Source: a virus. From it: a DNA stretch of 61,533 nt. A model generated the notes under the pieces. That model saw only the letters and a program-made list of their open reading frames with translations, had not been told where the DNA came from and made no database searches. Shown piece by piece: positions 1,297-47,105 of this stretch. The position numbers and the translations under genes were made by a program. Location: positions 1 to 61,533 of the IMG/VR virus record IMGVR_UViG_3300020436_000012; one strand, 5' to 3'. Within the stretch, counting starts at the first letter, position 1; each line of letters starts with the position of its first letter.

Positions 1297-1328
1297 TTAC
1301 ATTTTTATTGGATGTAAAAAAATAAGGA

Positions 1329-1357: not shown

Positions 1358-1382
1358 CAATAATAGACTAGGGAAAAAATAA

Positions 1383-1852: not shown

Positions 1853-3160
1853 ATGGCTGCATCGCTAAATTTACAAAGAAATACAAAAGTTTTTTACTCC
1901 ACCGTCGATCTTAACGGTGGGGCTGCGGCTACTGCAATGAGTCCCGCTAATACCTACGAAGTAGAAGTTTTAGCAGGATTTGCTTTTAGTCAGTCTGCAG
2001 CGACTCAAGACATTACATCGCTCGAAAGTGGTTTAACACCGGATCGTTCTACACAGAGGTTCAATACAGCTATTAACCCGGTTGATTGGAATTTCCAGTG
2101 TTATTTAAAACCCACACGAGCCACTGGAGTAACAGGAGCCGCAACTACCAACCAGCACGAAAGTGGTAACGCATTACCAGTCGCTGACTGGTTCTTATGG
2201 CAAGCACTGTTAAGTGCTACGTCCCCCGCTACAGGCACACAATTACAAAGTGCTTGGCAAGGAACTGCCGCAACTACCATTTCAAAATGGGAGAACCGTA
2301 ATCGTGCTGCTTCTGCAAACGTTGCTGCTTGTAATCCAAACTTTGCTACTGCAACAGAAAACCATCTTTATATGAAAGTCGATAACGTTGTTTATCAGTT
2401 GGCTAACGCCGCTGTTAACCAAGTGTCTATTGATGCCGCTATCGATGGAATTGCTACCTCAACTTGGACTGGTTTTGCTACCAACCTTGTAGAGCTTACA
2501 GGAGCACCAAGAAACGTTGCTATTAACGTCTTCGGGGGTGTTCTAAACAACGGTACTACTGTTGGTGCCGCATCTTCAATTGATATTTTTAAGACTAACG
2601 GTTCTACAGTAAATACCTCTAAGTTCCATCCTTGGAACTCTTACAATGTTGCAAGTACAGCTACTAGCGCAGAGTTTATTAAAAACCGTTTATCTACAAT
2701 TGATATTGTAGATGGGTCTGGAGGTACAGATCCTGCTAAACACACCTTCCCCGTTACTGGACTAACATTCGATATTAATAATAACATTACATATCTAACG
2801 GCGGAAGAGCTAGCTTCTCTTAACCAGCCAATCACTCAGTTTACTGGAGTTCAATCCATCTCTGGTTCGATTAGTGCTTACTTGAGAAGTGGCGGAGATG
2901 CTGCTGATAACTCAGCAACCTTCTTACGCAATATTGTTTCTAACACAGCTACTCAAACAGCTCAAGGCGCACAAGCAAACCTTAAGATTGGTGGTGCAAC
3001 AGCTCCTTACTTTGCTATTGATATGCAAGCGACTCAGTTCAGCTTCCCAACACATACTATTGAAGATGTTATTGGAATTAGTGCTGAATTCTTGGCGCAA
3101 GAAACAACAGCACAAAAAGGTGCAGGAGCAAACGTAACTTTTGTTACTCAAGCCGCGTAA
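1853..3160 (+). CDS. Major tail tube protein
   Basis: A 435-residue protein with a strong ribosome site (AAAGGAG) between the tail terminator and the tail-assembly chaperones, the fixed position of the tube protein. The N-terminal region carries QDITSLESG and DRSTQRFNTAINPVDW, which look like tube-protein core strands. It is longer than a minimal tube protein (about 200-250), so the middle (roughly residues 140-290, rich in Ala/Thr/Asn) probably adds an exposed domain on the tail surface. The composition is less AT-rich than neighbouring genes, as is common for an abundant virion protein. Hundreds of copies should polymerise around the tape measure. Confidence 0.75.
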   Translation: MAASLNLQRNTKVFYSTVDLNGGAAATAMSPANTYEVEVLAGFAFSQSAATQDITSLESGLTPDRSTQRFNTAINPVDWNFQCYLKPTRATGVTGAATTNQHESGNALPVADWFLWQALLSATSPATGTQLQSAWQGTAATTISKWENRNRAASANVAACNPNFATATENHLYMKVDNVVYQLANAAVNQVSIDAAIDGIATSTWTGFATNLVELTGAPRNVAINVFGGVLNNGTTVGAASSIDIFKTNGSTVNTSKFHPWNSYNVASTATSAEFIKNRLSTIDIVDGSGGTDPAKHTFPVTGLTFDINNNITYLTAEELASLNQPITQFTGVQSISGSISAYLRSGGDAADNSATFLRNIVSNTATQTAQGAQANLKIGGATAPYFAIDMQATQFSFPTHTIEDVIGISAEFLAQETTAQKGAGANVTFVTQAA

Positions 3161-7000: not shown

Positions 7001-8698
7001 ACTATAAGAGATAGAGCAGCACTAGAAAAAACTTCTCTCGAAAAACAACAGAAAGAATTACAAGCACAATTAGGTGGAGAAGGGGGTGGCTTAATAGCAA
7101 AAAGATTTGCTGCGCAAAGAGCTCTTGATCTAGCAAAAATTAAAGCTGATCAGGAAACCCGAGAATTAACGGCTAACCAGCTTGAAGCACAGGTAAAATT
7201 ACTTGATAAGCAACTAGACGGTTTCAGAGGACACGTTGAAGGGTTAGCCCGTATTTTGGCAGCTGACAGAATTGAAAGACAGCTTATGATGTCAAAACCA
7301 GGCGAGTTTGCGCAAGGGGGTAGAACTGTTGCACAAGAAAGAAAGTTTAGACTTGATCAACAAATGGAAGGCGTTGCAACAGAGATAAATAACATAATAG
7401 CGAAGATTGGTGGTCAAGGAGGTGGACTTACTAACCTTCTTAATACTATTAGGACCCGATCAGACGAGATTTTTAAACTACAACAAAAGAATGTTGGGGG
7501 TAAAACGGATGCTGCTGAGGCTGACGCACGTCTCAAAGCACAAGAAGCTCTCAATGACATACTTGAGAAAATAAAAAATAACGCAACCATCACAGCCACT
7601 GAAATTCAAAAATTAGATAATAAACTCAAAGAAGCTGGAATTAGCACCGCAAACTTAGCGGCTAAATTTGCAGATGCGGATAACGAAATGTTGCAAATTG
7701 CTAAAGATGTTGCTTCCTCTTTATCTGGTGGAATTGCTCAAGGACTACGAGATTTAAATGATGCCTTACTAGAGGGCACACTAACAATGGAGAACTTTAA
7801 AGAAGGATTTAAAGAAACCTTTATAAATATTGCAAAAGATATTCAAGGAAAAATATTTGAAAGAACTGTAGTCAAACCTGTAGAAAGCTTTATCAATGAA
7901 AAAGTGTTAGGAGCTTTTGGTTTTGCTCCAGATAAAAAGATTGAAGATGCTTTGGTTACCTCTACTGGCGGAACAGCCATGCTAGTAACTATGGCTCCGA
8001 GCGCTACATCTGTTGATCCTACTGAAATACTTAAAAAGCAATGTGATGCTGCCTCAGTAAAAGTTGATAATTTAGGAACGTCTTCAGACACAGGAGGAAA
8101 CTTCTTGATGGATATGTTTGGTAAAATTGGAGATGTCTTAGGTGATTTTGGAAGTGCTTTGTTAGAGGCAGGACAAGGAGTATTTGATTTTGTTGGAAGT
8201 CTATTCCAAGGGATTAGTGGTCTCGGTGGCGGTGGCGGCGGTGGCTTCTTTGGCAGCATCTTTAAAGGCTTTGGAAGCTTCTTTGGTAATATCTTTGGAG
8301 GAGGTGCAAGTGTAGCACCGACAGTAGGTGTTCCTGTTTCTCCTTCTATTCTACCTCCTGTTACAATGTTTGCAGCACGCGGAGGTTTAGTCAAAAGAAT
8401 GGCAGCAGGTGGGATGTTAAGAGATAGAATTCCTGCTATGTTAGAGCCAGGTGAATTTGTGATTCGTAAACCAATGGCAAAAGCTATTGGAGGGCCAGCG
8501 CTAAATGCAATGAACGCTCACGGAGCTATGGGCGGTCCTCAGAATGTAGTGGTTAACATGCATAACGAAGGAACTGCCCAAGAAACCTCAGAACAGCCTA
8601 GTGTCCAAGTTAGCCCCGAAACAATCATTGTAGATATTGTCACTAGGGATTTGAAAAACAACGGTCCAATTAGACAAGGAATTAGGAAATCACTATAA
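4082..8698 (+). CDS. Tail tape measure protein
   Basis: A 1538-residue protein with the features of tape measures: a hydrophobic helix near residues 51-74, a longer hydrophobic stretch near 444-475 (IALRALGIISMIVTTLSILI), and long Lys/Glu/Gln-rich coiled-coil regions through the middle. It also has a glycine-rich segment near 1380 and the typical C-terminal end (GGLVKRMAAGGML, then LEPGEFVIRKPMAKAIG). It sets tail length and may be ejected with the DNA. At about 0.15 nm per residue it implies a tail of roughly 230 nm, longer than that of lambda. The gene overlaps the stop of the chaperone and the start of the next gene by one base each. Confidence 0.95.
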   Translation: MAKKTKVQIAVETTGSKKAAKEIESVGRQQTRLGQASASAGREFSAQASGLGGLVSAYAGAAATIFALSAAFDALNRAARAEQTLAGVNALAAGIGESGPEVLSMIQRITKGQLSLVQAAELANLALSSGFSTEQLEGFTDVAMRASRALGRDLTDSFQRLVRGAVKLEPELLDELGIFTRIEPAAEAYAASVGKVASQLSRFEKRQAFANAVSEEGARKYADIDIEADTAAQSLEKLAATVSDLATNIGGVIARALAPFAEILTSPIAAIGLMGVLIKTVFGTALREATQRLTSFNANLRTSTDNLQDNLSSTKRIGQANLEFSEGMKGVTLNVARASAANEAEFKSLTKKAKAQTITTAETRRYNQIIEQEIAALNREKAALENSGKATAAKTARIGVLERRVKQFTIAQTAANARLKAFGPVAKAAGAAAIGFGKAVASAGKIALRALGIISMIVTTLSILITVGATVLDAFGWLDIVVEKTQKTVRFLKELLSITKEFNQAGRGIESVVENIDIPDTLTGKGIRPDGRIGKRNRKRSADSIRDAVEETVKAAPAAGFASADEFVKAFEKQLGIRSDSVTALARKLFKKIGQESQGTMRGRTLFAEAGGMTLKAADKVLEARRGELRVTNDILKNESLSLQKLGARFASAKEYNGLTEEDKERLEKRDKAQLSILQSQQLQVNFLQALRSGSATIEQLEQKRGAILAKIKNLLKEGGDTNKETAKILQKDLDNLNENAEVQIAILKTRKQIQETFSAQIKAADQLGKMNILTLEGDKASFKIAVSKKEQSAAQLTNLQQQFAAGKEFLDVERGRRDIGRELTDIEKQRAALARTAELAIVGQFQAIVEQSQKLKDNLDKQTLAYKNQITLLKQQNALQSADRSLKLSEQRLKTEQKSLANSVKTLQVERALAKARAEGADLDRQGRNKRATDIAAEFGDLLSPQRQRALELRIARSDLEALRKTVEAQKATIRDRAALEKTSLEKQQKELQAQLGGEGGGLIAKRFAAQRALDLAKIKADQETRELTANQLEAQVKLLDKQLDGFRGHVEGLARILAADRIERQLMMSKPGEFAQGGRTVAQERKFRLDQQMEGVATEINNIIAKIGGQGGGLTNLLNTIRTRSDEIFKLQQKNVGGKTDAAEADARLKAQEALNDILEKIKNNATITATEIQKLDNKLKEAGISTANLAAKFADADNEMLQIAKDVASSLSGGIAQGLRDLNDALLEGTLTMENFKEGFKETFINIAKDIQGKIFERTVVKPVESFINEKVLGAFGFAPDKKIEDALVTSTGGTAMLVTMAPSATSVDPTEILKKQCDAASVKVDNLGTSSDTGGNFLMDMFGKIGDVLGDFGSALLEAGQGVFDFVGSLFQGISGLGGGGGGGFFGSIFKGFGSFFGNIFGGGASVAPTVGVPVSPSILPPVTMFAARGGLVKRMAAGGMLRDRIPAMLEPGEFVIRKPMAKAIGGPALNAMNAHGAMGGPQNVVVNMHNEGTAQETSEQPSVQVSPETIIVDIVTRDLKNNGPIRQGIRKSL

Positions 8699-10335
8699 TG
8701 GCTACTTATCCCTCAGACGCAACAATTACAACAACTAGCTTTACCACTGTAGGTACCACTAACTATTCAAACACAGGAACTGTTAGAGAATTTAATCTAT
8801 CAACCACTGTAGAACATGTTGGTGAGGTAGTTGCGACAGTAGATGGAGTTATTCAAGATACTTCCACATATGTTACCTCTAATAGTGGTAATTCTATCAC
8901 TTTTGTGACGGCTCCAGACGCAACAGCTCTTGCTCTAAAAGTAATAACTCTTCCCTCTAGGTATAGAACAACTCGTGTTTTTCCTCAAGTTAGGTATGTA
9001 GACTATAATAACGCAGCAGCAGATATTCAAACCATAAACTCAAACGCTTACATAATCAATGGAGAAATACAAAACTTTCCTACACCTACACAAACCCAAG
9101 TTAATTCTAAAAACGATTTACTAGTAACAGTTTCTGGTGTTGAACAAACGCAAGATGCTTATGTTTTTCCCGCTTCTAACACAGAACCAGAAACTACTAC
9201 AGGCTCTATTTCACGAAATTTAGGTTCTGGCGGTATTACTATTGGACAATCTGCTGATACTATCTTGTTGTTAAATTTTGGAAAAAACTTCACTGATGAA
9301 AGTATCAAAGCTAGAGGAGCTGCTACAGTTTCTGGAGTAACACTAAGTAGTACTAAAAAGTATGGAAACTCTGCGGCTGCTTTTAACGCGGGAACTGACG
9401 TTATTAGTTTTACAGACAGTGATGATTTTTCTTACACAGGCTCTTTTAGTATAGAATGTTTCGCGAGGTTTGAAGACGCAAGTGCGGCTAACACTATATT
9501 TTCTCATCGCACAGATGATAATAACTTTGTTAAACTAAGTAGAATGGCTAATAATAAAATTCAGTGGACCGTAAAAGAAAGTGGCTCAACAGTTGCAGAT
9601 TTACAAGGTGGATCTATTAGTGCTGATACATTTGTTCATGTAGCTATTACTCACGACAGAAGTGAAGCACACTCAAGACTTTTTGTTAATGGGACAATGG
9701 TTCAAGAAGACAACGCCGTCAACTATTCGATAACTCCTACTGGAACTTTTGATATAGGCAGAATAAACACAACTAGTGCTGCTACTAGAGAAAATTTAAA
9801 AGGTTTCATAGACTCTTTTAGGTTTGTAAATGAGACAAGAATTTATGATAGGACTTTTGTGGTGCCTAGAACAGAACTCACTCGTATACATACTCCTTTG
9901 CAATCAAATGATACACTAGTAATAAGACATTTTGATAGTACCACTGAAACGTTTGATAGATTTACTTCTATGGCAGATAGAAAACCAGATAAAGGATTTT
10001 CAACTTCTACAGAGTTTGATGTAGTCCAGTTCACTTCTCAGGCTGGATATGAAAAACGTAGTTTAAGAAGTCGTCGTTCTAAACGTGATTTTGATATTTC
10101 ATATACTAACATATCAGGAGTGGAAAAACACGCAATTGAACAATTTTACAGGGCTAGAAATGGCGCATTTGAAACTTTCACTTTTGACTTGACACACATC
10201 AATGAAATTGGTAATATACAAGCAAGGTTTGATGGTCCTTTAGGAATTACTCACGTATTTTCTGATGCTTCAAATACTAGTCTACAAAATAATTATTACA
10301 CAGTGAAGTTTAATTTAAAAGAGGTTTACGACTGA
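8698..10335 (+). CDS. Distal tail protein with LamG-like lectin domain (gpM position)
   Basis: A 545-residue protein directly after the tape measure. Residues about 1-130 hold a beta module (VEHVGEVVATVDGVIQDT) that recurs in other tail proteins here. Residues about 195-385 look like a concanavalin/LamG sandwich (GSFSIECFARF, THDRSEAHSRLFVNGTMV, GFIDSFRFVNETRIY), usually carbohydrate-binding. The C-terminal 110 residues (EQFYRARNGAFETFTFDLT) match the end of phage minor tail proteins in the lambda gpM position. The likely role is to join the tail tube to the tip while displaying a lectin domain. The domain calls were made by eye. Confidence 0.7.
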   Translation: MATYPSDATITTTSFTTVGTTNYSNTGTVREFNLSTTVEHVGEVVATVDGVIQDTSTYVTSNSGNSITFVTAPDATALALKVITLPSRYRTTRVFPQVRYVDYNNAAADIQTINSNAYIINGEIQNFPTPTQTQVNSKNDLLVTVSGVEQTQDAYVFPASNTEPETTTGSISRNLGSGGITIGQSADTILLLNFGKNFTDESIKARGAATVSGVTLSSTKKYGNSAAAFNAGTDVISFTDSDDFSYTGSFSIECFARFEDASAANTIFSHRTDDNNFVKLSRMANNKIQWTVKESGSTVADLQGGSISADTFVHVAITHDRSEAHSRLFVNGTMVQEDNAVNYSITPTGTFDIGRINTTSAATRENLKGFIDSFRFVNETRIYDRTFVVPRTELTRIHTPLQSNDTLVIRHFDSTTETFDRFTSMADRKPDKGFSTSTEFDVVQFTSQAGYEKRSLRSRRSKRDFDISYTNISGVEKHAIEQFYRARNGAFETFTFDLTHINEIGNIQARFDGPLGITHVFSDASNTSLQNNYYTVKFNLKEVYD

Positions 10336-12323
10336 TGACTACCCGCACATATGATTTCATCTTGACAGTTACGCAACCAGATGTAATCGCTGTAGGAGAT
10401 ACCATTCTTAGTAATGTAACAGCAACTAGCGGAGAAGTGGTAGGTGTTGATGCTGCTAATGCTAACATCAAAGTTAAAGTAGCTAATGTAAATCAAGAAT
10501 TTGTAGTTGGAGAAAATGCAAGGTCAGTATTTAACCTAGTAGCTTCAAACGCTATTTCTGTTGCTTACAGTAATAGTTCTTCAACCACTGTAAATGGTAA
10601 TGCTTTTATAATTAATGGAGCAACAAATACTTTTTCTTTGCCTTCTGAAGCCTTATCTTTGAGCAATGTTACTTTAGATAATTTTGATGTATTTATAAAT
10701 AATAGAATTATACCTAAACAAAACATTAATTTTCCTAGTGCAACTTTAGGAGATACAGGGTTTGATATTAATCCTATCTCTCCAGTAACTTCTGGAACTA
10801 CTTTTACAAAAAAAGGGTTAAGAGAGTCTCTCACTAATAACCCACAAAGAGTTGCGACTCTTTTAAGTGATTTAATACTGCCGACTATTGACGCTTCAAT
10901 AGTAGCAGACGAAACTACCGAATTTGAGTATGAAATTAATTATGATAATTGGATTTCTGCTAACGCTTTTGCTGTGGATGTTAGAGTAGACACTGGAAAT
11001 AATGAAACTATCCCTTTTACTGCTGCTGCTTTTAGTGAGCAGAAAAATGGTGCTAATTTTGCCATTACCAATATAATAAACTCTAACTATATTAGAGAAA
11101 GAAATGCTTTCGTTCAAAATCCTGTTGTTAGATTATATAGTATATATTACCCAGGTGAGTGGTACAAGCCCAATGAAGTAGGCAACCCAACAAATGATGG
11201 AGAGGGTAGAAGATGGCCTGACGGATTCCCTCTTAGGTTTGCAGAAGTTAGAGGAGACTTAAATGCTGATGTAACTTATAATGTAGAATTTGGAGGAGTT
11301 AACTATACTCCTATGCCTATTAATAGTGGAGGTTTAGAAATAGACTCGTCAGGTAAAATCAATGAAATAAGTATTGACATATCTAACTTTGATGGTTTAA
11401 TTACTCAAATAGCTGAAAATCCAGATTTAGTAGGTAATAACACTTCTAACGCGTGTTTTGCTGTCGTTAATGGTGAGGTGGTGACGGGCATTGACCCAAG
11501 AACGATTCCAACCGGAGCAACTTATGCAGAATCAGAGCATGCAACAGTTTTAGCAGCACAAAGAACAAAAGGTTTAAATTTTAACCAATCAGTTAGAGAC
11601 TCTTATGGGGTAGATAATGCTTCATTCACTATATCTACTACAGCAGACGTAGGCGGGGAGTGGAAAAGAGAAAAAATGGATTCTCGTGACCTGTTAGGCG
11701 CGGTAGTAGAAATTAGATCTACTTTTGCTAACTTTTTAGATTACTGGCCAGAGTATGCTAGGGTAGATGCGGCTTTTGCAAACGTGATCGAAGTTAGTAC
11801 TGCATTACCTTATAGAGTTGGGGACAACGTAAAAAGTAGAAGTAACAGTTTTATAGCAACTATAGATGCAATAGAAGAAAATAGGTTCATATTTACAAAT
11901 GCTGCATTAGAAATAACAGTAGGAGACCCGTTATTAATTGAAAATATTGATAGTGATGATGAGGCATATATAGAAGATGTATTTAAGATTGACTCTTTGT
12001 CTGGGTTAGACGAAAAAGTTGCCACTTTTTCTTTAACAAGTTGGTTACAATTCTTTAAACTTAGGGTTCCAAAAAGAAAGTATTATAAAAATACTTGTCA
12101 GTGGATTTATAAAGGAGAAGAGTGTCAGTATCCTGGCCCTGCAGGAGGCACCATCCCTGGGACTAGTTTAAGCGCAAACTCAAACCCGATTGCTGCGAAT
12201 AACCAAATCGCAGGAAGTGTTCAAGGAGATGAGTGTGGTAAAAGTTTTGAATCTTGTCAGATTAGAAATAACACTATTCATTTTGGAGGCTTTCCCGGCA
12301 CTGGTAGAACTATTCCTAAGTAA
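10335..12323 (+). CDS. Minor tail protein L-like with C-terminal Fe-S cysteine motif
   Basis: A 662-residue protein in the gpL position. The C-terminal part carries four cysteines spaced C-x8-C (TCQWIYKGEEC) and C-x6-C (ECGKSFESC), followed by FGGFPGTGR. The spacing within each pair equals that of the four cysteines that hold an iron-sulfur cluster in lambda gpL, the tail-tip protein. Lambda gpL has about 230 residues, so the first 400 or so residues here are additional beta-rich domains, again including the fibre-like module near residues 55-150. Start and stop overlap both neighbours by one base, indicating translational coupling. Confidence 0.75.
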   Translation: MTTRTYDFILTVTQPDVIAVGDTILSNVTATSGEVVGVDAANANIKVKVANVNQEFVVGENARSVFNLVASNAISVAYSNSSSTTVNGNAFIINGATNTFSLPSEALSLSNVTLDNFDVFINNRIIPKQNINFPSATLGDTGFDINPISPVTSGTTFTKKGLRESLTNNPQRVATLLSDLILPTIDASIVADETTEFEYEINYDNWISANAFAVDVRVDTGNNETIPFTAAAFSEQKNGANFAITNIINSNYIRERNAFVQNPVVRLYSIYYPGEWYKPNEVGNPTNDGEGRRWPDGFPLRFAEVRGDLNADVTYNVEFGGVNYTPMPINSGGLEIDSSGKINEISIDISNFDGLITQIAENPDLVGNNTSNACFAVVNGEVVTGIDPRTIPTGATYAESEHATVLAAQRTKGLNFNQSVRDSYGVDNASFTISTTADVGGEWKREKMDSRDLLGAVVEIRSTFANFLDYWPEYARVDAAFANVIEVSTALPYRVGDNVKSRSNSFIATIDAIEENRFIFTNAALEITVGDPLLIENIDSDDEAYIEDVFKIDSLSGLDEKVATFSLTSWLQFFKLRVPKRKYYKNTCQWIYKGEECQYPGPAGGTIPGTSLSANSNPIAANNQIAGSVQGDECGKSFESCQIRNNTIHFGGFPGTGRTIPK

Positions 12324-13196: not shown

Positions 13197-13539
13197 CGCC
13201 ATGGGAAAGCACGCACAAGCTGAGTACCCTAAAGAGTGTTGCGGCATTATTACAAAAGATTTTAAATATGTACCTGCTAAAAACATAAGTCCTTTGCCTA
13301 AAGAAACTTTTATTCTTGACCCAGAAATATTATGGGAATATGAAGACAACTGCTGGGGCATATTTCATTCCCATCCAGGAGAAGAAAACCCTATACCTAG
13401 TGAAGAGGACAAACAAGGAGCAGTATTTGAAGAATTTAAATTTATTGTAGGATTTAATAATAAATTTTATATCTATTGGTTTGAAAAAAAGATAGACGCA
13501 ATTAAATTTGACGAATTTAAGGAAGATTATTTAAAGTGA
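13171..13539 (+). CDS. JAMM/MPN metallopeptidase (gpK half)
   Basis: A 122-residue protein with a complete JAMM zinc motif: Glu22 (KECCGII), His66 and His68 in HSHP, then Ser77 and Asp80 in PSEED. JAMM peptidases remove ubiquitin-like proteins, and in phage tails they are encoded next to ubiquitin-like TAPI proteins, as here. The ATG at 13171 has AAAGGA seven bases upstream, although it lies inside the previous gene; another ATG follows at 13201. The stop overlaps the GTG of the first TAPI gene. The natural substrate in phage tails is not established; the neighbouring TAPI proteins are the obvious candidates. Confidence 0.85.
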   Translation: MTLFSTLIDAMGKHAQAEYPKECCGIITKDFKYVPAKNISPLPKETFILDPEILWEYEDNCWGIFHSHPGEENPIPSEEDKQGAVFEEFKFIVGFNNKFYIYWFEKKIDAIKFDEFKEDYLK

Positions 13540-14207: not shown

Positions 14208-14914
14208 TTACTTTAGTTATACATTCTAATCTAAAACCATATTTTAAAGATAAAAGAGAGTTATATATCAGTTGTAATGACTATCATTCTTTATTAAGTT
14301 TTATGATAAACTCTTTTCCAGAGTTTAACACGTTATTAAAAAAACTAAAAACTAATTTTAACAGAGACTTCTTTATTTTGGACAAAAATAAAAAAAGAGT
14401 TAACTTAGCAGACGTACAAGCTAATAAGAAATTAGAAAAAGATGCTGTTTACTATTTAGTGCCTTCTTTAATCGGTGCTGGAGGAAAAGGTGGTTTTATG
14501 CAGATAGCTCTTGGTGTCGCTATTATGGCACTGGCTTTTTACATGGCCCCCGCTGTGGTAGGAGCGATGGGGCCTACAATGGGAATGGGTACAACAGCTT
14601 TTACGGTAGGAACAATGGCGGTTACTTATACTAATATAGCAATGTTTGGAGCTTCAATGGCTTTACAAGGAATAATGAGTATAGTACAGAAACCCCCAAA
14701 TAGAGCACAACCAGGCGGTTCTACTTTTAATGACGATGGATCAAAAACTCAAAATAGTTTGTTTACTGGTTTAAATAATACTATCGAAGTAGGGTTTCCT
14801 GTTGGGATGAATTATGGAGCGACTAGAATTGGGGGGCAAATGATAAGTGGATTTGTAAAAAGTTTGAATCATGGTAAAAATGATATAATCAAAGTTTCGG
14901 AGAGTTTTGCATAA
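14204..14914 (+). CDS. Tail assembly protein I-like (TAPI), ubiquitin-like, copy 2
   Basis: A 236-residue paralogue of the preceding gene: beta-grasp at residues 1-88, GAGGKGG at 91-97, hydrophobic Ala/Gly/Met-rich segment at about 98-155, a polar linker, and a C-terminal block MNYGATRIGGQMISGFVKSL nearly identical to that of copy 1. Start and stop overlap both neighbours. Lambda has a single gpI, which is needed for tip assembly but absent from the finished virion. Two copies may form a heteromer or act in sequence on the large tip protein that follows. Confidence 0.8.
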   Translation: MITLVIHSNLKPYFKDKRELYISCNDYHSLLSFMINSFPEFNTLLKKLKTNFNRDFFILDKNKKRVNLADVQANKKLEKDAVYYLVPSLIGAGGKGGFMQIALGVAIMALAFYMAPAVVGAMGPTMGMGTTAFTVGTMAVTYTNIAMFGASMALQGIMSIVQKPPNRAQPGGSTFNDDGSKTQNSLFTGLNNTIEVGFPVGMNYGATRIGGQMISGFVKSLNHGKNDIIKVSESFA

Positions 14915-17900
14915 TGAGTGTATATAAAAAATATACCAATGTTAGTGGAGGGTCTGTCCCTATCATATCTGGAAGCAAAGGAGGCTGTTTTCCAGCAGGA
15001 TCTTTAGTGTCTACTCCCCGTGGAGAAATACCTATTGAAGACATAAAACTTAATGATAAAGTATATTGTTTTGATGATAACGATAAGCGTTGGGTATCTT
15101 TTGTAGAAAAGACTTGGGAGCATGTTCCTTCTGAAACAGTAGGTTATATATTAACTATTACTCACGAAAAAGGTAAATTGCGGGTTACAGATAATCATTA
15201 TTTGTATGATGAAAACAATGAATATAAAGAAGCTAAAGACTGGAAAGTTGGAGAATATTTAACTTCAGAGGACAACGATTTTAGTAAGATTTTATCAATT
15301 AAGAGTGAAGATTATTTAAACGAGACAGTATATAATTTAACAGTTAATACTTATCACAACTACATTTGTCAAGGAATTCGCCTGTCTAATAAAGGCGGAG
15401 GAGGAAAAGGAGGGGGCGGAGCGCGTGCGGCTGCAACAGAATCTCCAAATACTTTATTTTCTACCGACATTTTGTTTTTAACTGTTGCGTTGGGTGAAGG
15501 CCCTATTTATAGAATTAATCCTAATGGTCCCCAAGATATTGAGATTAACGAAGGAGCTATTGATGACTTAATTAATATTGATGGAGACGGAGAAGAGAAC
15601 AACGAAGTATTTAAAACTTTAACAACTACAGGAACTCTAACTCAAGAGCCTTTAGCTGTGTTTGGTGCTGAGACTATCACTCCTCAAAATTTAAATAACC
15701 CTGTAAGTTTAAAAAATGGTAATGTGGAAGGTATTCCAAAAGCGTCAGTTACTTTACAAAATACTAGCGCAAAAGATTGGGACAAGATAAGATTTAACTT
15801 TGTTATTCAAGGACTTCAAAAATCTGATGGAAATGGTAACGTTACAGGTTCTAGTGTTTCTATTACTATTCAAGTTTTTGATCGAACAGGTACGACTTTA
15901 ATCGCTGAATTAGGAGAAGATAGTAGAACAATTAGCGGAAAAACTAACACGAGATTTAAATTTCAAAGAGATATTTTAATTCCAGAAGCTTCTAGATCGC
16001 TTGATGGATATAAATTTACGATTGAGAAAACTTCTTCTGATAGTGATTCTAATAGAACGCAAGACAACGTTCAGTTTATTGGATGGGATGAGATAGAGTT
16101 TGATGATATGGCATATCCTAGAACTTCTTTAATTGGTTATGCTATCAAATCTTTTAATGAGCATGAAGGTAGAGTTCCTACATTTACCTCTTTAATAAAA
16201 GGGCTTTTAGTAAAAGTTCCCTCTAATTATAATCAACCTATTTTATCTAATGGAGAAATAGATTGGAGAGAATTAGAAATTCCCGAAACAGGCACTTCGA
16301 CTATTGGTGGAGAATCAACACAAATTGGATATACGCAAAAAGGATATCAATTACAAACTACAGTAGAAGGTGTAGCTGAAAAGAAAATTAGTCTCATTAG
16401 TGGTAGCGCAGGCACTGGCTATGCCTCAGATGCTACTCCTTCTGTTACTATTTCAGGAGGAGGAGGTAGTGGCGGTGCTGCTACTGCAAATATAGGAACT
16501 AACAAAGTCTCTAGTTTTACTTTAACAAATGCGGGTAGTGGGTATACCTCTGCTCCTACGGTAACAGTTGCAGCCCCAGCGGCGGTAACCTTTAATGGAG
16601 CTTCCGCAGTTAATGATAGCTCTGATACTATAACAATTACAGGACATCCTTTTGCTACAGGAGATCAAGCAACTTACAGCGCTGGTGGAGGTACTGCTAT
16701 TTCTGGAACAGGTGTTAGTACTGCGTCTGGAGGGGTGTTCATCATTAGTGTTGATGCTAATACGGTAAAACTAGCAACCAGTTCGGTAAACTCACTCTCA
16801 GGAACTGCTATTGATATAACATCAGGATCTGGGTCTAGCCACACACTAACTGGCATGACAGCTACCGCTACGGCTACACTAACTACAGAACAATTTAATG
16901 CAAACCCGATAATTTATCAAGGTGTTTGGGACGGCACTTTTGTATACTCTTGGACTCAAAACCCGATTTGGATTGTTTATGATATTTTAACAAACCGAAC
17001 TTATGGTCTAGGAATAGATGAAGAAAATATAGATAAGTTTATGTTTTATAAAGTTGCACAATATTGTGATGCCTGTGATTTTACTACAGGCGCTTTTATT
17101 GGGGTGTCTGGTTTTGCAGACGGAACTTTTAGACATAAACCTAGAGGATTATTTACTACTGTTAGAGAAATACTTGTAGGACTAGATAGAGGTGTTCAAG
17201 TAAAAGAACGTAGATTTATGAATGATATTAGTATACAAGAAGATGTTCAAGTGATGGATACTATTAATAAACTCACTTCAACATTTAGAGGACTATTATA
17301 CTACGCAGGAGGTAAAATTACATTAAATATTGATATACCAGAAGATACTCCTGTTGCTGTTTTTAATGACGCTAATATTAGAAAAGACACTTTAAAATTC
17401 TCAGGCACTAAAGAAAGTGATATTATAACAGGAGTAGACGTATCTTATATTGAACCTGCGAATCACTTTAAAAGAGAAGTGGTAAGAATTGATGATCAGG
17501 AAGCTTTAAGAGATAGAAATCAGATAGAAAATATTCAAACAGTTGATTTAGCTGGGGTCACTCGTAGAAGTCAGGCATCTAGATATGGACAATATTTAAT
17601 TGCTTCTTCTAAATATTTAAGAAGACAAGTAGAGTTTCAGTGTGGGGTAGATGCCCTTAATCTAGTCGTCGGAGACATTATAACTGTCGCTACTAAGCAA
17701 GGGGGAATTGCTTATGGATTCGGAGGAAAAGTAGCTGCAGATTCTCAAATAACAGGTGGTGGTGTAGCAAATGCTAATATTCTTTTAGAACATTTTACTA
17801 GCCCTGCTATTACTGCTAGCACTTTTACTGGTAATACTAATCCTCTCGCAGTGAGAATAATTGGTATGGAATCTGATAGAATTGACTACTATTTAGTAGA

Positions 17901-20900
17901 TAACGTTTCTTTTACTGCGAACGCTACAGGTAATGCAGACTCAGGCATAGACTTAATAGAGATTGAAACTATAGCAAGATATAACTATAGTACAAAAGCT
18001 TTTGTGAACGGGAGAGACTTTTTAGCTAATAATGTTCCTAAAAAAGGAGACCTTTGGACTTTTGGAGAAACTGGAGGTGACCCAGATAATTTTTATACCG
18101 CTCAGAATGATCGGCTTTTTAAAATTACCACTATATCAAGAGGAACAGAAGAAGACGTGACTATAACGGGAATTGAGTATATTTCTAACGTATATGTTGA
18201 CTCTGATTCTCTAATTGCTTATGTGCCTGTTAGATATGATGACACCGTGTCTAGTTTGACCCCTCCTCCTTCTCCAGAACTTAATTTATCTTCTAGGCCT
18301 AGAGAGTTAGGGGATGGTTCTGTTACAAACGACTTGTTAGTTGATGTATTTACTGATCAAACAGGGTACCCTCTTTTTGTAGAGACTGATTTATCAATCG
18401 CTAGACCTGATTTTAATTTTACTCCATACTTAACTTCCAATGCAAATACAGGAGCAACAACCTTTACTGCATCTAATGTTTCTCCCTTAGCTAATGGGGA
18501 AGTATCTATCTTGTCAGGTAAAAACGGTTTTAAAACAAACACAGGAGAAATAAAACTACTAGTGGACGCAGTGACAAATCCTGATGTAACAGATACTTCC
18601 AATGGAAATGTGCAATTTAGTATTAAATCTTTAAATCTAGCTTTTGATATTAATCAAATGAAACACGTTTTAGAAGTTAATGATGGTGGTGGAGCTGTCG
18701 CTAACGTTTTAAAAGGTTTCGATAGAGTTTCTTTTGACTTAAACCAAAAACTTACTACAGGAACAGGATTATTAGGTTTTGTTGATCATGGCACTAGACT
18801 CACCCAATATAGTGCTAATATTGTTGCTCATTCGACAACAATGGATGCAGGAACAATAAAAATACAAAATGAACACTCTGGAGAATCAACGCTACTTGAT
18901 CAACTTCCTACTCCTCCGTTTTTTGTTTCTATTAATCAACTGGTAGATACTAGGTTTATGGATAATAGGTCTTTATATATTTCTGGTAGTAGTTTTACTG
19001 AAATACACAGTAATGTCCTTACAGGAAATTTAACATCTAGTTCAAGCTTTATACAACCTTTAGTAAGAGGTGCTCCTTTTAAAGAAGCAGTGAGAGTGTT
19101 CATAGATGGAATAGAAAAAACTACAGGAGACTGGAATTTTACTAGCTCGGCCAACGATTCAATAACTGTTCCCGGACTAAGCACCGAAGCTACAATTAGA
19201 GTAGAGGCAGAGCATTATACTGTTCCTGCAGTCGAGCCAGGGGATAATTTACAGTTTCATTCTGGAAATGTTTATTCTATAGTTAACGCGTCATATTCTA
19301 CAGACAGCGCCGATTTTAACGCATCGTTAACAGCTAATAGTATGTATAGGGTAACTTTAGGTTCTAAATTACGTTCTAACACAAGAGGAACTGTAGCTGT
19401 TAATATTAGTCCTGATCCTATAGGAACAACTAATAATGTTGTTGGTAGAAGTTTTACTTTTGATTATAACAAAACACTATTCCCAGGTACGTTCTCCCTA
19501 TCTAATAATGCTATTTATTCTGTGTTAACTCCAACAACTTTTGACGGATTTCAAATTCCTAACGATAGACTAGTAAGAGATATTGATCCCGGACTTTATG
19601 TATTAAGAGCGCAAAACGTTAACCAAGCAGGTAGAAGAAGTCCTATTGTGACCGAATCTATTTTAATTAATGAAATACCTATCCAAAGAGTAGAAAATTT
19701 ACTTATTACAGAGTCTTTATATATTGAACAGTCTGTTGGTGCTGTAACAAGAGTAACAGTAGAATTTGATCATCTTCAAAACCAAAGTGTTACTGACTAC
19801 GAACTCTCTTATAAGTTAGGAGGTACTGCCGCAGACCTAACCTCTTTTAATACAGTTAAGCTTCCCGCTACTGGGGTGGATACTGACGGTAAAATGAGAT
19901 TTACTATTAACAATGTTGATCGTGGACTAACCTCTAGTGTTAATAATATAACAGTGCGAGTTACTGCTTTAAATAAATCAATTAAAGGAGTAACCTTTGA
20001 AAAAAGCCAACCCATTTTAGGTAAACAAATACCTCCACAAAATATTCAAAACTTTAGTGTTTCTCAATTAGGAGAAAATATTCACTTATTCTGGGCGTAT
20101 GTTACTAATGCAGACGGCTCGTTGATTGACCCAGATTTAAGAGATATTGTTATTAAAAGAACACAAGGTATAGTGCAACCTGCTGATTTTGCTTCTGCTT
20201 TTGTTAATGCACCAGAGTTTATTGTAGTTAGTTCTGGGTCGACCAGGAAAGTGGCTGCTATTGACACGTTTGGAACATTTACTTATTTAGCTAAAACTCG
20301 TGATACTAGTGGTAACTTAAGCACAGATGTAGTTGGTGTAACTTTTACCTCAGTAAAATTAGCCGAGTTGTTCTTATTACAGTCTTATAGTGAAGATAAT
20401 CCAGGAGGTAACGTCATAACAGGAGTGCCTCTAACTAACCGTGCCGAATTTAACTTTCCAAGTTTGGCAAATTCAAATACGGCAGGTATTTCGATAGCTG
20501 CACAACCTACTTCGTTAGTTGATAATGCTAACGGTACTGCTGTAGGATTTTCTGTGATAAGTGGTAGTCCTACAGATATTTTAGCTACAGGAAGTCAATC
20601 AATATATCAAACACAAGTAAGAGATATAGGCGCTTTAACATCTGTTAGTTTAACTGCTAACATACAAGGCACAGCAACTACCTCTACAGACTGGAATACT
20701 CTACACCGAGATATAGCCACAGGAGTTACAGAAGTTAGTAGTGACAACACCATACTGAAAGATACAGGATTAGGCGGTTCTGAGGGAGTAGGCACAGTTC
20801 TTGGATTTGGTAACACTGTTGCAGCGATCCATACCGCTGACATCCCAAACCAGACCCTAGTGAGTGGTGGAGCCACCGGAAATGTTTTTGCGATTTGGAA

Positions 20901-22119
20901 TGACGGACAGTATTCAACTACGTTTTCAGACGGAGCAGGAGTTAAATCAATCACCGCGATAACACAAGCAGAGCCAGGTATTATAACTGTATCTGCTGAT
21001 CACTTTTTAGCAGCAACCACTCCCGCAACAAGAAGTATTATACATGACGTAATAGGTATGACACAATTAAATAGTAGAGAAGTTTATGTAACTAGAAGCA
21101 CCTCAAATACTACTCTTCAACTATTTAATTATACAGCTAAATCTGGTGTTACTATTTCAGCAGTCACAAAAGCAAACCCTGCAGTTGTAACTGCCTCTGG
21201 TCATGGTCTGAGCGATGGAGACAAAATAATTATTCAAGGGGTAGTGGGCATGACTGAACTAAACGGTCTTGTTTTCACTGTCGCTAATAAAACTACAAAT
21301 ACTTTTGAGCTTTCAGGAACAAATAGCAGTTCTTTCACTACTTACTCCTCTGGGGGTGTAGTTCACGAAGCTATTAATACTTCATCAGGACACTCAGCCT
21401 ACTCTAGTGGAGGGGTTGTAGACTTAGGAGACTATTCTAATGCTAATTCTTACGCTTTAATTGCTAGTGTGATTGCCGCAGATCAAATTAAATTAGGAAA
21501 AGTATACCACGCTAACGGGGCATCAACAGGAGCTAATGCATTTGCCAACTTGACAACTGTTGCGAGTTCATATAAACTAGTAGATCTAAATCAGTTTGCT
21601 GACTCTTCTTCTGCGGCGACCACATTCTTAGGAGATTCTAGTGCTTTGTCAAGGGTTACAGAAATTAGAACTTCTGAGTCTGACCCGTTTTTTGCTAATG
21701 GTAATGTAAATATTAGTACGTTTACTGGAACTTCTGATGATAGATTCACTACTTTTAGTACTGGATCAAGATTAGCTAGATTTTTCCAAATCAGAGAAAT
21801 TATAACAAACGCAAAACCAACTGAAACTAATTTTACGTTAGACACTTTTGAATATACGGTAGATAAACCAACTCAAGAGTTTAGAACTAGAGTTACTTTT
21901 GCAGGAACTAGCGATACTGGAGGAAATACTGCAGTAGACTATTCTTCTGCCGGATTTATTGAACCCCCGTTTATAACTATGACCCCTGTGGGAGCAATAG
22001 GAAAAATTGCAACAGTTATAGGCTCAACAAATACAGGAGCAAATATTAATGTCGTTAACTCATCTGATCAAGCACCTTCTACAGGTGTAGTGTTAGATTT
22101 TGTGGCACAAGGAATTTAA
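14914..22119 (+). CDS. Central tail tip / host-specificity protein J-like, with Hint domain
   Basis: A 2401-residue protein in the gpJ position. Residues 1-24 end in a glycine stretch, residues 25-159 form an intein-like Hint domain (separate entry), and residues 160-200 resume a gpJ-type N terminus (KGGGGKGGGGARAAATESPN, then ILFLTVALGEGPIYRINPNG). Residues about 662-720 match the conserved gpJ core (WDGTFVYSWTQNPIWIVYD, then YGLGIDEENIDKFMFYKVAQ). Fibronectin-III-like segments start near 1590 and 1705. Two tandem FCCH-like repeats (SGHGLSDGDKIIIQGVVGM type) occupy about 2009-2152. Low-complexity Gly/Ala/Thr loops sit near 500-650. The C terminus probably contacts the receptor. It is about twice the length of lambda gpJ. 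Confidence 0.9.
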   Translation: MSVYKKYTNVSGGSVPIISGSKGGCFPAGSLVSTPRGEIPIEDIKLNDKVYCFDDNDKRWVSFVEKTWEHVPSETVGYILTITHEKGKLRVTDNHYLYDENNEYKEAKDWKVGEYLTSEDNDFSKILSIKSEDYLNETVYNLTVNTYHNYICQGIRLSNKGGGGKGGGGARAAATESPNTLFSTDILFLTVALGEGPIYRINPNGPQDIEINEGAIDDLINIDGDGEENNEVFKTLTTTGTLTQEPLAVFGAETITPQNLNNPVSLKNGNVEGIPKASVTLQNTSAKDWDKIRFNFVIQGLQKSDGNGNVTGSSVSITIQVFDRTGTTLIAELGEDSRTISGKTNTRFKFQRDILIPEASRSLDGYKFTIEKTSSDSDSNRTQDNVQFIGWDEIEFDDMAYPRTSLIGYAIKSFNEHEGRVPTFTSLIKGLLVKVPSNYNQPILSNGEIDWRELEIPETGTSTIGGESTQIGYTQKGYQLQTTVEGVAEKKISLISGSAGTGYASDATPSVTISGGGGSGGAATANIGTNKVSSFTLTNAGSGYTSAPTVTVAAPAAVTFNGASAVNDSSDTITITGHPFATGDQATYSAGGGTAISGTGVSTASGGVFIISVDANTVKLATSSVNSLSGTAIDITSGSGSSHTLTGMTATATATLTTEQFNANPIIYQGVWDGTFVYSWTQNPIWIVYDILTNRTYGLGIDEENIDKFMFYKVAQYCDACDFTTGAFIGVSGFADGTFRHKPRGLFTTVREILVGLDRGVQVKERRFMNDISIQEDVQVMDTINKLTSTFRGLLYYAGGKITLNIDIPEDTPVAVFNDANIRKDTLKFSGTKESDIITGVDVSYIEPANHFKREVVRIDDQEALRDRNQIENIQTVDLAGVTRRSQASRYGQYLIASSKYLRRQVEFQCGVDALNLVVGDIITVATKQGGIAYGFGGKVAADSQITGGGVANANILLEHFTSPAITASTFTGNTNPLAVRIIGMESDRIDYYLVDNVSFTANATGNADSGIDLIEIETIARYNYSTKAFVNGRDFLANNVPKKGDLWTFGETGGDPDNFYTAQNDRLFKITTISRGTEEDVTITGIEYISNVYVDSDSLIAYVPVRYDDTVSSLTPPPSPELNLSSRPRELGDGSVTNDLLVDVFTDQTGYPLFVETDLSIARPDFNFTPYLTSNANTGATTFTASNVSPLANGEVSILSGKNGFKTNTGEIKLLVDAVTNPDVTDTSNGNVQFSIKSLNLAFDINQMKHVLEVNDGGGAVANVLKGFDRVSFDLNQKLTTGTGLLGFVDHGTRLTQYSANIVAHSTTMDAGTIKIQNEHSGESTLLDQLPTPPFFVSINQLVDTRFMDNRSLYISGSSFTEIHSNVLTGNLTSSSSFIQPLVRGAPFKEAVRVFIDGIEKTTGDWNFTSSANDSITVPGLSTEATIRVEAEHYTVPAVEPGDNLQFHSGNVYSIVNASYSTDSADFNASLTANSMYRVTLGSKLRSNTRGTVAVNISPDPIGTTNNVVGRSFTFDYNKTLFPGTFSLSNNAIYSVLTPTTFDGFQIPNDRLVRDIDPGLYVLRAQNVNQAGRRSPIVTESILINEIPIQRVENLLITESLYIEQSVGAVTRVTVEFDHLQNQSVTDYELSYKLGGTAADLTSFNTVKLPATGVDTDGKMRFTINNVDRGLTSSVNNITVRVTALNKSIKGVTFEKSQPILGKQIPPQNIQNFSVSQLGENIHLFWAYVTNADGSLIDPDLRDIVIKRTQGIVQPADFASAFVNAPEFIVVSSGSTRKVAAIDTFGTFTYLAKTRDTSGNLSTDVVGVTFTSVKLAELFLLQSYSEDNPGGNVITGVPLTNRAEFNFPSLANSNTAGISIAAQPTSLVDNANGTAVGFSVISGSPTDILATGSQSIYQTQVRDIGALTSVSLTANIQGTATTSTDWNTLHRDIATGVTEVSSDNTILKDTGLGGSEGVGTVLGFGNTVAAIHTADIPNQTLVSGGATGNVFAIWNDGQYSTTFSDGAGVKSITAITQAEPGIITVSADHFLAATTPATRSIIHDVIGMTQLNSREVYVTRSTSNTTLQLFNYTAKSGVTISAVTKANPAVVTASGHGLSDGDKIIIQGVVGMTELNGLVFTVANKTTNTFELSGTNSSSFTTYSSGGVVHEAINTSSGHSAYSSGGVVDLGDYSNANSYALIASVIAADQIKLGKVYHANGASTGANAFANLTTVASSYKLVDLNQFADSSSAATTFLGDSSALSRVTEIRTSESDPFFANGNVNISTFTGTSDDRFTTFSTGSRLARFFQIREIITNAKPTETNFTLDTFEYTVDKPTQEFRTRVTFAGTSDTGGNTAVDYSSAGFIEPPFITMTPVGAIGKIATVIGSTNTGANINVVNSSDQAPSTGVVLDFVAQGI
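14986..15390 (+). other. Intein-like Hint domain inside the tip protein (residues 25-159)
   Basis: Residues 25-159 of the tip protein show the Hedgehog/intein fold blocks. The opening is Cys25-FPAGSLVSTPRG with IEDIKLNDKVYCFD. The block B T-x-x-H is LRVTDNHYLYD (Thr92, His95). The closing strands are VYNLTVNTYHNYICQGIRL with a final Asn159. Cys25 could form the N-terminal thioester. The usual penultimate His is Ser158, and the residue after Asn159 is Lys instead of Cys/Ser/Thr, so ordinary splicing is unlikely while N-terminal cleavage remains possible. No homing endonuclease is inserted. It sits exactly between the glycine stretches SGSKGG and KGGGG. Confidence 0.85.
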
Positions 22120-45006: not shown

Positions 45007-45963
45007 TTAATATCCGTTAGGGATAGCTACGTAGTGAATGAACAATACAATCCCTACACTAGCGCCTAACCCGATCATCATTTTAAAGAAATCACGAGTT
45101 ACCAACGGGAACACTTGCTTCATTGTTGTGTTTCTCACTGAGGCGATTGCTAGTTCGCGCCCTGTTAACAGACCTACGAACACCCATGTGGTTGACATTG
45201 GAATATCGTTTAATTCTTTGAAGAACCATAAACACAACCAATATACTAGGTCAATGATGGTAGCTGAACGAATATATCGAGTGCTTGTTTTTTCTAGAAC
45301 GATATTTTGAATTTTACCGCCTCGCTCTCTGAACATCCATCCTAGTCCTACAACAAATACGATGCTGATTAGAATCATCAAATCCCACGGAATTTGTCTT
45401 GGAAGGAATACAGCAATATTAGCCATATCATGTGATAACCAAGTCCACCATAAGAATCCTGTAGTACACCATTGACCTACTCGCCAATATGCTTTATACT
45501 TATCGCTGACAGGTTTTTTCTCGTCTAAGACTCTGGATACGATATGCCATATTGCATATGCCGCGACAGCCGCGACTGCATATCCCATCATAGATTTCAT
45601 TAGCATTTTTTCTAACACAAATGTTGATGCAAATGCTGATAGCACTAAGAAGGAAGTTGAAACTGGAACTCCTATTCTAGTTAGTAGCAACAACAAAGCC
45701 GGAGCCGTTGCATGATACCACTGAACTTCTTGCCACGGAATTTTATTTAGTCGGCCATATGAAATGTCTCCTCCACTTACATACCAACCATACCATAATG
45801 CCCATAACAAAACAGACGACGCGGCAAACCACATCGTCTTCCAATTAAATCTCTCGTTATTAGAAGCGATCCATGTGCCGAGAGTTTGCACAGAATCGTT
45901 TGCGATGACACTATAGGCAGCTAATAAAAAGCCAATTGTCATCCATATTGTTAGGTCGGTCAT
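45007..45963 (-). CDS. PiT-type inorganic phosphate transporter
   Basis: A 318-residue membrane protein with many hydrophobic segments and the duplicated PiT signature. The first half has IANDSVQTLGTW (residues 20-31) and IGVPVSTSFLVLS (97-109). The second half has LSHDMANIAVFLP (176-188) and DIPMSTTWVFVGL (253-265). These match the inverted (G)xND..N/GT and P.ST(T/S) motifs of PiT/PHO4 phosphate permeases. It is shorter than bacterial PiT (about 420-500), mainly in the central loop. The gene is less AT-rich than its neighbours, suggesting acquisition. A PhoB-box-like promoter lies upstream, so it is probably induced by phosphate starvation. Substrate inferred from family. Confidence 0.8.
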   Translation of the reverse strand: MTDLTIWMTIGFLLAAYSVIANDSVQTLGTWIASNNERFNWKTMWFAASSVLLWALWYGWYVSGGDISYGRLNKIPWQEVQWYHATAPALLLLLTRIGVPVSTSFLVLSAFASTFVLEKMLMKSMMGYAVAAVAAYAIWHIVSRVLDEKKPVSDKYKAYWRVGQWCTTGFLWWTWLSHDMANIAVFLPRQIPWDLMILISIVFVVGLGWMFRERGGKIQNIVLEKTSTRYIRSATIIDLVYWLCLWFFKELNDIPMSTTWVFVGLLTGRELAIASVRNTTMKQVFPLVTRDFFKMMIGLGASVGIVLFIHYVAIPNGY

Positions 45964-46012
45964 ATTTTATACCTTTCAATTGTTGTTATGCAACCCTTTA
46001 GGTTACTTTTAG

Positions 46013-46046
46013 AGTATAACATAAATATGTTACAGTTTCATTACAA
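46013..46046 (-). promoter_or_regulatory. PhoB-box-like promoter of the phosphate transporter gene
   Basis: On the - strand: TTGTAAT-GAAA-CTGTAAC (46046-46029), two 7-base direct repeats separated by four bases, each 5/7 to the Pho box unit CTGTCAT. It is followed by ten bases and TATACT (46018-46013). The 7-4-7 box and ten-base gap to -10 equal the arrangement of the E. coli phoA promoter, and no good -35 hexamer is present, as expected for PhoB-activated promoters. Start of transcription would be near 46006, with a leader of about 42 bases. Confidence 0.65.
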
Positions 46047-46253: not shown

Positions 46254-47105
46254 CTAAAATTTCATTCCGTTTTGTTTCATCTCATTTGATACGTAATGGT
46301 TAGTAGGAGAACACATGTTACATAAAGGTTCTTCATCTGTCAAACACCATTCTATTATTTCTTCTTCAGTCATTTCTAAAGTAGCAGGTTGGATACTAGT
46401 ATAAGGTTTCCATTCTTCACTATCTTGTTGTCCCCAATGAGTTAGTCCATCTTTTAAATGTGCATGAACACTACATTTATATAATTTATTTTTATATAAA
46501 CCTTTACAATATTTCGCTTCACAAATATTATAACTATCTTTTATCTGATTAGCATTATAGGGATGAATACCTTTTTCATCTCTTTTATGATATAATTTCC
46601 AATAATTAGTTCTTGTAGTATCAATTAAGTGTATTAAACTGCCTTTACTATTTATTTTCCTATAATCATCCCCTAAATATTCTATACAATCTTCTAATAT
46701 TTTTTTTAATCGTTTCTGGTAGTTTGAATCTGAAAAGTGTACAGACACAAATATTTCGCTACGAGTTTCTTTAATCGCGTCCAATACATTAGTCTTTTTA
46801 TTCAAAATTAAACCATTTGTTCCTAAAACAACTCTCCATTTAGGAAAATTTTCTCTAACTAAGTATAACAATTCTGGAAGTTTTTTGTATAAAACAGGCT
46901 CTCCTCCTAAAATTTTTATTTTATCAAAAGGTATTTTACCTTGTTCCCATATGGGCATAATTTTTTTAGCCCAAGATTTAACACTATCTTGTAGCTCGTC
47001 CCAATCATGCTCTCCTTTTAGATAATCTGAATAACTATCACAAGCATAACACTTAAGATTACAAGTTTGATTTATTAATAACTCTAATTGATACCTATCT
47101 AACAT
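46254..47105 (-). CDS. Radical SAM protein
   Basis: A 283-residue protein with the radical SAM motif QTCNLKCYACDSY (C-x3-C-x2-C), the SAM-binding ILGGEPVLYKKLPELL, and VVLGTNGLIL downstream. C-terminal cysteines (ICEAKYCKG, YKCSVHAH, PLCNMCSP) suggest a SPASM- or twitch-type auxiliary cluster, as in enzymes that modify peptides or sugars. It is the second radical SAM protein of the window and belongs to the operon with the unknown 237-residue protein and a glycosyltransferase. Substrate unknown. Confidence 0.8.
   Translation of the reverse strand: MLDRYQLELLINQTCNLKCYACDSYSDYLKGEHDWDELQDSVKSWAKKIMPIWEQGKIPFDKIKILGGEPVLYKKLPELLYLVRENFPKWRVVLGTNGLILNKKTNVLDAIKETRSEIFVSVHFSDSNYQKRLKKILEDCIEYLGDDYRKINSKGSLIHLIDTTRTNYWKLYHKRDEKGIHPYNANQIKDSYNICEAKYCKGLYKNKLYKCSVHAHLKDGLTHWGQQDSEEWKPYTSIQPATLEMTEEEIIEWCLTDEEPLCNMCSPTNHYVSNEMKQNGMKF

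Follow-up and report, generated by a model that had tools for sequence, protein, structure and literature searches.

A PiT-like phosphate transporter clade of uncultured marine phages and its candidate PhoB-controlled promoters

Phosphate genes of phages and the present locus

Phosphorus is a main cost in making phage DNA, and cyanobacterial phages have been shown to tap the starvation alarm of their hosts. Control of pstS of the Prochlorococcus phage P-SSM2 by the host PhoBR system is discussed, and PhoB binding to S-PM2d promoters is shown, in PMC10976474. Virus-borne transporters of the PHO4 type are also on record: marine algal viruses have pho4 and one phage-derived metagenomic clone was placed near HIMB59, without support (Monier et al., 2012, PMC3429862), and soil phage genes include pit (PMC10987575). 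On the host side, infection of SAR11 by HTVC027P is accompanied by upregulation of the host pstABCS, phoB, and phoU genes (PMC12753301), and the phosphate genomic islands of HIMB59/AEGEAN-169 contain pst, phoR-phoB, and some Pit genes (PMC10734472).

The window analyzed here is a virus record of 61,533 bases with a G+C content of 34.7%. It encodes tape-measure, gpJ-like tip, and NlpC/P60 proteins, with which the designation of this virus as a siphovirus in the preliminary description plausibly fits. The PolA of the record is about 39–41% identical to its best cultured-phage matches, which are T5-like and related phages. As a separate observation, the tip protein has a Hint/intein-like domain near its N-terminus (residues ~21–161), for which PF07591 scores above the cut-off and PF01079 and PF14890 score below it. 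The features of the transporter locus are listed in Table 1, together with those of related contigs.

Like the cyanophage pstS, the transporter gene of the window is a phage phosphate-uptake gene read as being under host PhoB control through a Pho box. However, the cyanophage gene codes for the periplasmic binding component of an ABC transporter, Pst, and its box is of the cyanobacterial type (PyTTAAPyPyT/A), whereas the window gene codes for a PiT-type permease that stands alone, and its box, here read from the sequence, is a TGTAAC repeat of the alphaproteobacterial type. The earlier proposal that this gene represents a different solution from pstS applies to the stand-alone gene of the window, but some of its relatives hold pstS and PiT together. 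The algal-virus pho4 and the 2012 clone are similar in that they represent virus-borne PHO4-type phosphate transporters; neither a Pho box nor a phage-own clade is reported in the portions of PMC3429862 and PMC10987575 at hand, and the 2012 clone may belong to the phage clade described below. The pst, phoR-phoB, and Pit genes in the islands of marine alphaproteobacteria (HIMB59/AEGEAN-169) resemble the neighborhood of some cellular homologs of the transporter. However, these islands are chromosomal, PMC10734472 is not about the phage clade, and its "Pit" may belong to this subfamily or to another. No earlier report of this PiT subfamily with a Pho box was found in the open-access literature. 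What was already known comprises the cyanophage pstS under PhoB and one phage pho4 clone (2012); the new element is the pairing of this transporter family with a Pho box of the alphaproteobacterial type, which would extend the tapping of the host alarm to another type of box and another type of transporter.

Table 1. Positions of features in the window and in related loci.
Sequence	Feature	Position	Strand	Remarks
Window	Putative PiT-type (SLC20/PHO4-like) phosphate transporter gene	45007..45963	-	318 aa, ATG start, two inverted-repeat halves; phmmer, AF2, Foldseek, VIA, tree
Window	Pho box, 7-4-7 direct repeat TTGTAAT-GAAA-CTGTAAC	46029..46046	-	Top PhoB-matrix match of the window
Window	-10 element TATACT	46013..46018	-	10 nt past the Pho box; TG at 46021-46020 makes an extended -10
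Window	Weak leader hairpin GUAACC-UAAAG-GGUUGC	45990..46006	-	z -1.6, alone not significant
Window	AAAGG, Shine-Dalgarno-like	45972..45976	-	8 nt 5' of ATG; from sequence
Window	Radical-SAM protein gene	46254..47105	-	Next gene upstream of the transporter gene; 290 nt between
Window	gpJ-like tail tip protein	14914..22119	+	2401 aa
L058	Covarying leader hairpin	5962..5989	+	
L038	Covarying leader hairpin	5726..5753	+	
L474	Covarying leader hairpin	13242..13269	-	
L474	Covarying leader hairpin	12183..12210	-	
L128	Pho-type repeat	2901..2912	-	5' of SAR11-type cellular homolog
L130	Pho-type repeat	2915	-	5' of SAR11-type cellular homolog
L144	Pho-type repeat	2911	-	5' of SAR11-type cellular homolog
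L069	Permuted tmRNA	1944..2249	+	Two-piece, alphaproteobacterial type
L078	Permuted tmRNA	7076..7449	+	Two-piece, alphaproteobacterial type
L033	Glutamine riboswitch	4650..4698	+	RF01739, 56 bits
L034	Two TctA/TctC-type tricarboxylate transporter-like genes	8322..10669	+	
L027	Haem/tetrapyrrole synthesis-like gene	9879..11674	-	Named from sequence
L027	Haem/tetrapyrrole synthesis-like gene	173..1378	-	Named from sequence

Promoter layout and the proposed action of PhoB

The 7-4-7 Pho box of the preliminary description was recovered as described, with the minus-strand half-sites TTGTAAT (46046–46040) and CTGTAAC (46035–46029) separated by GAAA and followed, after the 10 nt ATATTTATGT, by TATACT. 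The pattern TGT[AC]A[CT]-N5-TGT[AC]A[CT] occurs only once in the whole window when both strands are searched. A PhoB matrix of 23 columns was derived from 16 distinct sites located 5' of pstS and DUF47-PiT genes in SAR11-order genomes, with no phage sequence included. The PstS genes for this training set were taken by PF12849, and shorter PF12849 proteins, which are possibly not PstS, were left out; TIGR00975 gave no match for PstS in eight genomes. The training set includes two or three weak sites among its 16, and the matrix shares a prior with the phage sites because its seed (TGTAAC-N5-TGTAAC) was picked after these were known. Under this matrix, which represents the SAR11 order, the window site ranks first among 123,022 positions with 23.5 bits, and the runner-up has 12.7 bits.

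The box stands where a -35 element would be expected. After a gap of 10 nt comes an extended -10, with TG one base before TATACT, and 49 nt separate this hexamer from the ATG. No good -35 hexamer was seen, as had been noted before, and the weak sigma-70 match that is present (ATGAAA-17-TATACT, 9/12) is no better than expected by chance. The layout of the window is shared by a phage pstS (L474; TTGTCAT-ATTT-CTGTTAC, 10 nt, TATACT), and a SAR11-order pstS has a box followed after 10 nt by TATCTA (L396). At L201, L351, L231, and L024, the box lies 8–10 nt 5' of a TTGAC(A/T)-17-TATAAA-like promoter, and because these four differ from the window, two phage promoter layouts exist.

With a probability of roughly 0.8, we favor the reading that phosphorylated host PhoB drives this promoter in starved infected cells and that the PiT-type permease made by the phage then brings in more phosphate for phage DNA synthesis. 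In a phosphate-starved infected cell, phosphorylated PhoB of the host, which is assumed to encode this regulator, would bind the Pho box and recruit RNA polymerase, with the box standing in for the -35 element and the extended -10 at 10 nt. The phage transporter would then be made mainly while phosphate limits phage DNA synthesis, and the additional import would serve that synthesis. PhoB binding and induction are predictions from sequence comparisons, as are the substrate that is transported and its direction, the host, and the benefit to the phage; binding, reporter induction, and uptake can all be assayed in laboratory strains with synthetic fragments. Only the type of the box and the cellular relatives of the transporter point to SAR11-order or similar hosts.

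Descriptions of PiT systems usually give them low affinity and no Pho induction, which counts against induction by PhoB, and in E. coli PhoB has been reported to repress pitB. Such repression, the good TTGAC(A/T)-17-TATAAA promoters that follow some of the phage sites, and the few sites on the opposite strand are consistent with an alternative in which the promoter belongs to the phage program and PhoB, bound at the box, represses it or no more than adjusts it. We consider this alternative unlikely, given that the window box sits in the -35 region, where a good hexamer is missing, and 10 nt ahead of the -10, which is an activator layout, and that the same layout is found 5' of SAR11-order and phage pstS genes.

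A divergent PiT-like subfamily and its gene neighborhood

The protein contains all four motifs that were attributed to it (IANDSVQTLG, PVSTS, SHDMANIAV, and PMSTT). A phmmer search against PDB sequences returned TmPiT (6l85), the solved PiT member and a Na+/phosphate transporter of Thermotoga, as the sole match (E = 1.9e-4); the A3 profile had no match among PDB sequences, whereas the single sequence did. When an AlphaFold (AF2) model derived from 48 relatives (pLDDT 83, pTM 0.83) was searched with Foldseek, 6l85 was again the one significant match (E = 2.8e-4). In a comparison by VIA, 283 residues of the model were aligned to 6l85 with a Z of 20.4 and an rmsd of 3.8 Å, and the next entry is unrelated, with a Z of 6.3. 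By this comparison, the model has the PiT fold with two inverted halves. The search of the model against BFVD gave no significant match, an absence that is not evidence for a new fold, and no paper on the binding residues of TmPiT was found in the open-access literature.

A comparison by hhalign with the canonical PiT of SAR11-order bacteria gave an E-value of 1.3e-5 and a probability of 80. In the alignment to canonical PiT, ANDSVQTLGT corresponds to ANDAANVFGT, PVSTS to PVSTT, SHDMANI to ANNIANV, and PMSTT to PVSSS. Each of the two GANDVAN-type signatures has one Asn replaced (ANDSVQ for ANDAAN and SHDMAN for ANNIAN): the second Asn of repeat 1 corresponds to Gln26 and the first Asn of repeat 2 to His178, and both swaps are found throughout the subfamily, cellular members included. 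The PVST(T/S) motif is present in both halves (residues 100–104 and 255–259) and is invariant or nearly so across the 48 homologs. The protein resembles the PiT/PHO4/SLC20 family (PF01384; TmPiT) in its modeled fold, its two inverted halves, and its AND-x(2)-[NQ] and PVST-type motifs, but differs in its length (318 vs. 402 aa), in falling below Pfam detection, and in the Asn-to-Gln and Asn-to-His replacements in the signatures.

For Pfam PF01384 (PHO4), no match above the gathering cut-off was found for the transporter in the window, and a cellular homolog (L087) scores 24.7 bits against a cut-off of 33.7. Searches of the 318-aa protein in Pfam, NCBIfam, and PHROGs yielded no usable family; the weak matches to PrgI, a light-harvesting beta subunit, and a minor coat protein were dismissed as chance. 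Judged by sequence and model, the transporter is a divergent PiT-like subfamily outside PF01384 membership, and its family is a separate marine subfamily of PiT. The gene product is predicted to be a compact PiT-type inner-membrane phosphate importer, for which substrate, direction, and coupling ion are assigned by relationship; by analogy with TmPiT, it is probably ion-coupled. Because Pfam annotation misses this gene, the transporter is probably undercounted among phage metabolic genes.

Several cellular homologs are located next to phosphate genes. A gene of the phosphate-selective porin family Porin_O_P lies directly 3' of the homolog in L087 (E = 1e-13) and L112 (E = 1e-81), and a general porin lies beside it in L148, all according to Pfam. 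Judging from names read from the sequence, PhoB and PhoR genes adjoin the homolog in L128, and a PstS-like gene and a DUF47-PiT gene pair are near that of L134. A PhoB remnant is found beside the homolog in L137 and L138, and DUF47 and canonical PiT were confirmed by Pfam in L106. The next genes in SAR11-type loci encode a metallophosphoesterase and a glycosyltransferase, a pair that we take to resemble the plcP-agt lipid-remodeling pair. Many Flavobacteriales and other loci have unrelated genes beside the homolog. A Pho-type repeat was also observed 5' of the SAR11-type cellular homolog in three loci, on the opposite strand only (Table 1). Among phage contigs, L280 has the order Pho box, pstS (PF12849), and PiT, and so does L238, where the box is weaker (12.6 bits). 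In L085, the order is Pho box, Porin_O_P, and PiT; this contig comes from a bin, and its protein groups with the phage clade. A ribose-phosphate pyrophosphokinase-like gene, named from its sequence, lies 3' of PiT in 10 of the 100 distinct phage loci.

The preliminary description had allowed for assignment to a non-phosphate family. Profile and fold searches indicated a phosphate transporter and no other family, and cellular homologs adjoin phosphate genes in several lineages. Some members of the PiT superfamily carry sulfate, and because Gln26 and His178 replace signature Asn residues, the protein could depart from canonical PiT in the ion to which it couples, in its affinity, or in its exact substrate. 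These family-wide departures are compatible with a transporter that is real and has another oxyanion (sulfate, arsenate, or phosphite) as its main substrate, such that PhoB would control a related stress function. This is a rather improbable explanation in view of the sole significant solved match being a phosphate transporter, the several homologs adjoining phosphate porins, PstS, PhoR-PhoB, and DUF47-PiT, and the Pho-type box 5' of the gene, and phosphate import remains our preferred reading.

At least 599 candidate stretches with homologs of the transporter were found in IMG/VR, every one confirmed by tblastn, and the phage clade is present in at least several hundred of these uncultured contigs. 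Neither tblastn with two family members against 50,697 cultured-phage records nor nucleotide queries with L027 and a section of the window against cultured phages gave a match. The cellular homologs are 55–65% identical and come mainly from marine Alphaproteobacteria, SAR11-type genomes included, and Flavobacteriales. In a tree of 48 rows, read as unrooted, all phage proteins form one group (100/99) that adjoins a Flavobacteriales group (96/89), which argues against repeated recent capture from hosts. The protein of L085, binned as an "uncultured bacterium," sits inside the phage group, and L081–L084, which are 73–77% identical to the phage query and were outside the tree sample, may be phage contigs that were placed in a bin of bacterial sequences. 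The transporter gene is not a one-off and belongs to a phage-own clade.

Recurrence of the Pho box and a covarying leader hairpin

The region upstream of PiT was compared among 100 distinct phage sequences (8-mer Jaccard under 0.30 over 150 bp), with other genes of these loci supplying 597 upstream control regions. A score of at least 10 bits was reached by 24 of the PiT regions and five controls (Fisher P = 3e-17, an optimistic value because the regions are not fully independent), and a score of at least 15 bits by 17 and three, respectively; Markov-resampled regions reach 10 bits at a rate of 0.2 per 100. The three controls above 15 bits belong to the pstS of L280 and to the dCMP-deaminase gene preceding PiT in L047 and L048, and the fourth-best belongs to the pstS of L238; all four lie just 5' of the transporter. 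Across 1.5 million positions, 25 sites have at least 15 bits, including 19 within 250 bp 5' of PiT, five at the first gene of a PiT group, and one elsewhere. Gene order and strand suggest that the first genes of these groups are cotranscribed with PiT. The relaxed repeat pattern was found in 21 of the 100 regions on the sense strand and in seven on the antisense strand, compared with 8 of 698 controls.

The comparison with relatives that had been suggested for the intergenic region shows that the box recurs despite diverged flanks, but also that it is not universal. About three-quarters of the distinct phage upstream regions are without a SAR11-type box, so that Pho control is common rather than universal, or other hosts use other boxes. 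That the window site is a chance direct repeat in an AT-rich region is very hard to credit, given that it is unique in 61.5 kb, exceeds the next site by 11 bits under an independent matrix, and belongs to a type strongly enriched 5' of the homologs relative to 597 other phage genes and resampled sequence. With hundreds of related viral sequences carrying the importer and the switch at about one-quarter of the tested promoters, these viruses probably use the starvation alarm of the host for their own DNA synthesis.

Just 5' of the Shine-Dalgarno sequence, roughly half the distinct phage PiT leaders (one pattern finds 46 of 100, and a wider pattern 49) have a hairpin of the form GUGAGC-[5-bp stem]-GGUAAAR-[stem']-AAGCA; the window is without it. 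Among 22 distinct hairpin sequences, the five inner pairs are able to pair in all, and each of these pairs is changed on both sides. Covariation amounts to 37 double-change cells compared with 13.2 after shuffling (0.639 vs. 0.191), and slid controls reach at most 0.113. An exact-pattern scan of IMG/VR recovered 116 stretches. PiT follows shortly 3' in 77 of the 80 that were classified, two others (L473 and L492) end in the first residues of PiT, and the hairpin of L477 precedes pstS. When all collected loci were scanned, 114 distinct copies were located directly 5' of PiT and four before other genes, namely one pstS and three genes for small secreted-type proteins. Two consecutive genes of the group each have their own hairpin, with different stems, in L474, L477, L479, and L512. 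A second hairpin with a AACGUCGA-like loop is often found 5' of the covarying one. A search of one leader (L027) against Rfam at lax thresholds gave no convincing family for the hairpin, and there is no significant association between the hairpin and the Pho box (9/24 vs. 40/76, P = 0.24). The covarying hairpin may be a site of translation-level control.

Taken together, the evidence leans slightly toward a mobile phosphate-uptake module shared by uncultured marine phages. Such a module would consist of the phage-own PiT clade with or without pstS or a phosphate-type porin. It would be controlled at the promoter by host PhoB and also, for roughly half the distinct leaders, by a hairpin RNA not described before that lies just ahead of the ribosome site of every uptake gene.

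Other features were observed in the contigs that carry the phage PiT gene. An Rfam search of the window itself gave no match. A permuted tmRNA lies close to the PiT gene in L069 and L078, which suggests alphaproteobacterial hosts for those phages. The PiT gene of L034 is near two tricarboxylate transporter-like genes, the second of which had no Pfam match at E 0.01, and L033 has a glutamine riboswitch. The haem/tetrapyrrole synthesis-like genes of L027 have a similar counterpart in L024 and L058, and the enzymes read from these phage contigs are 5-aminolevulinate synthase-like, HemE-like, and HemC-like.
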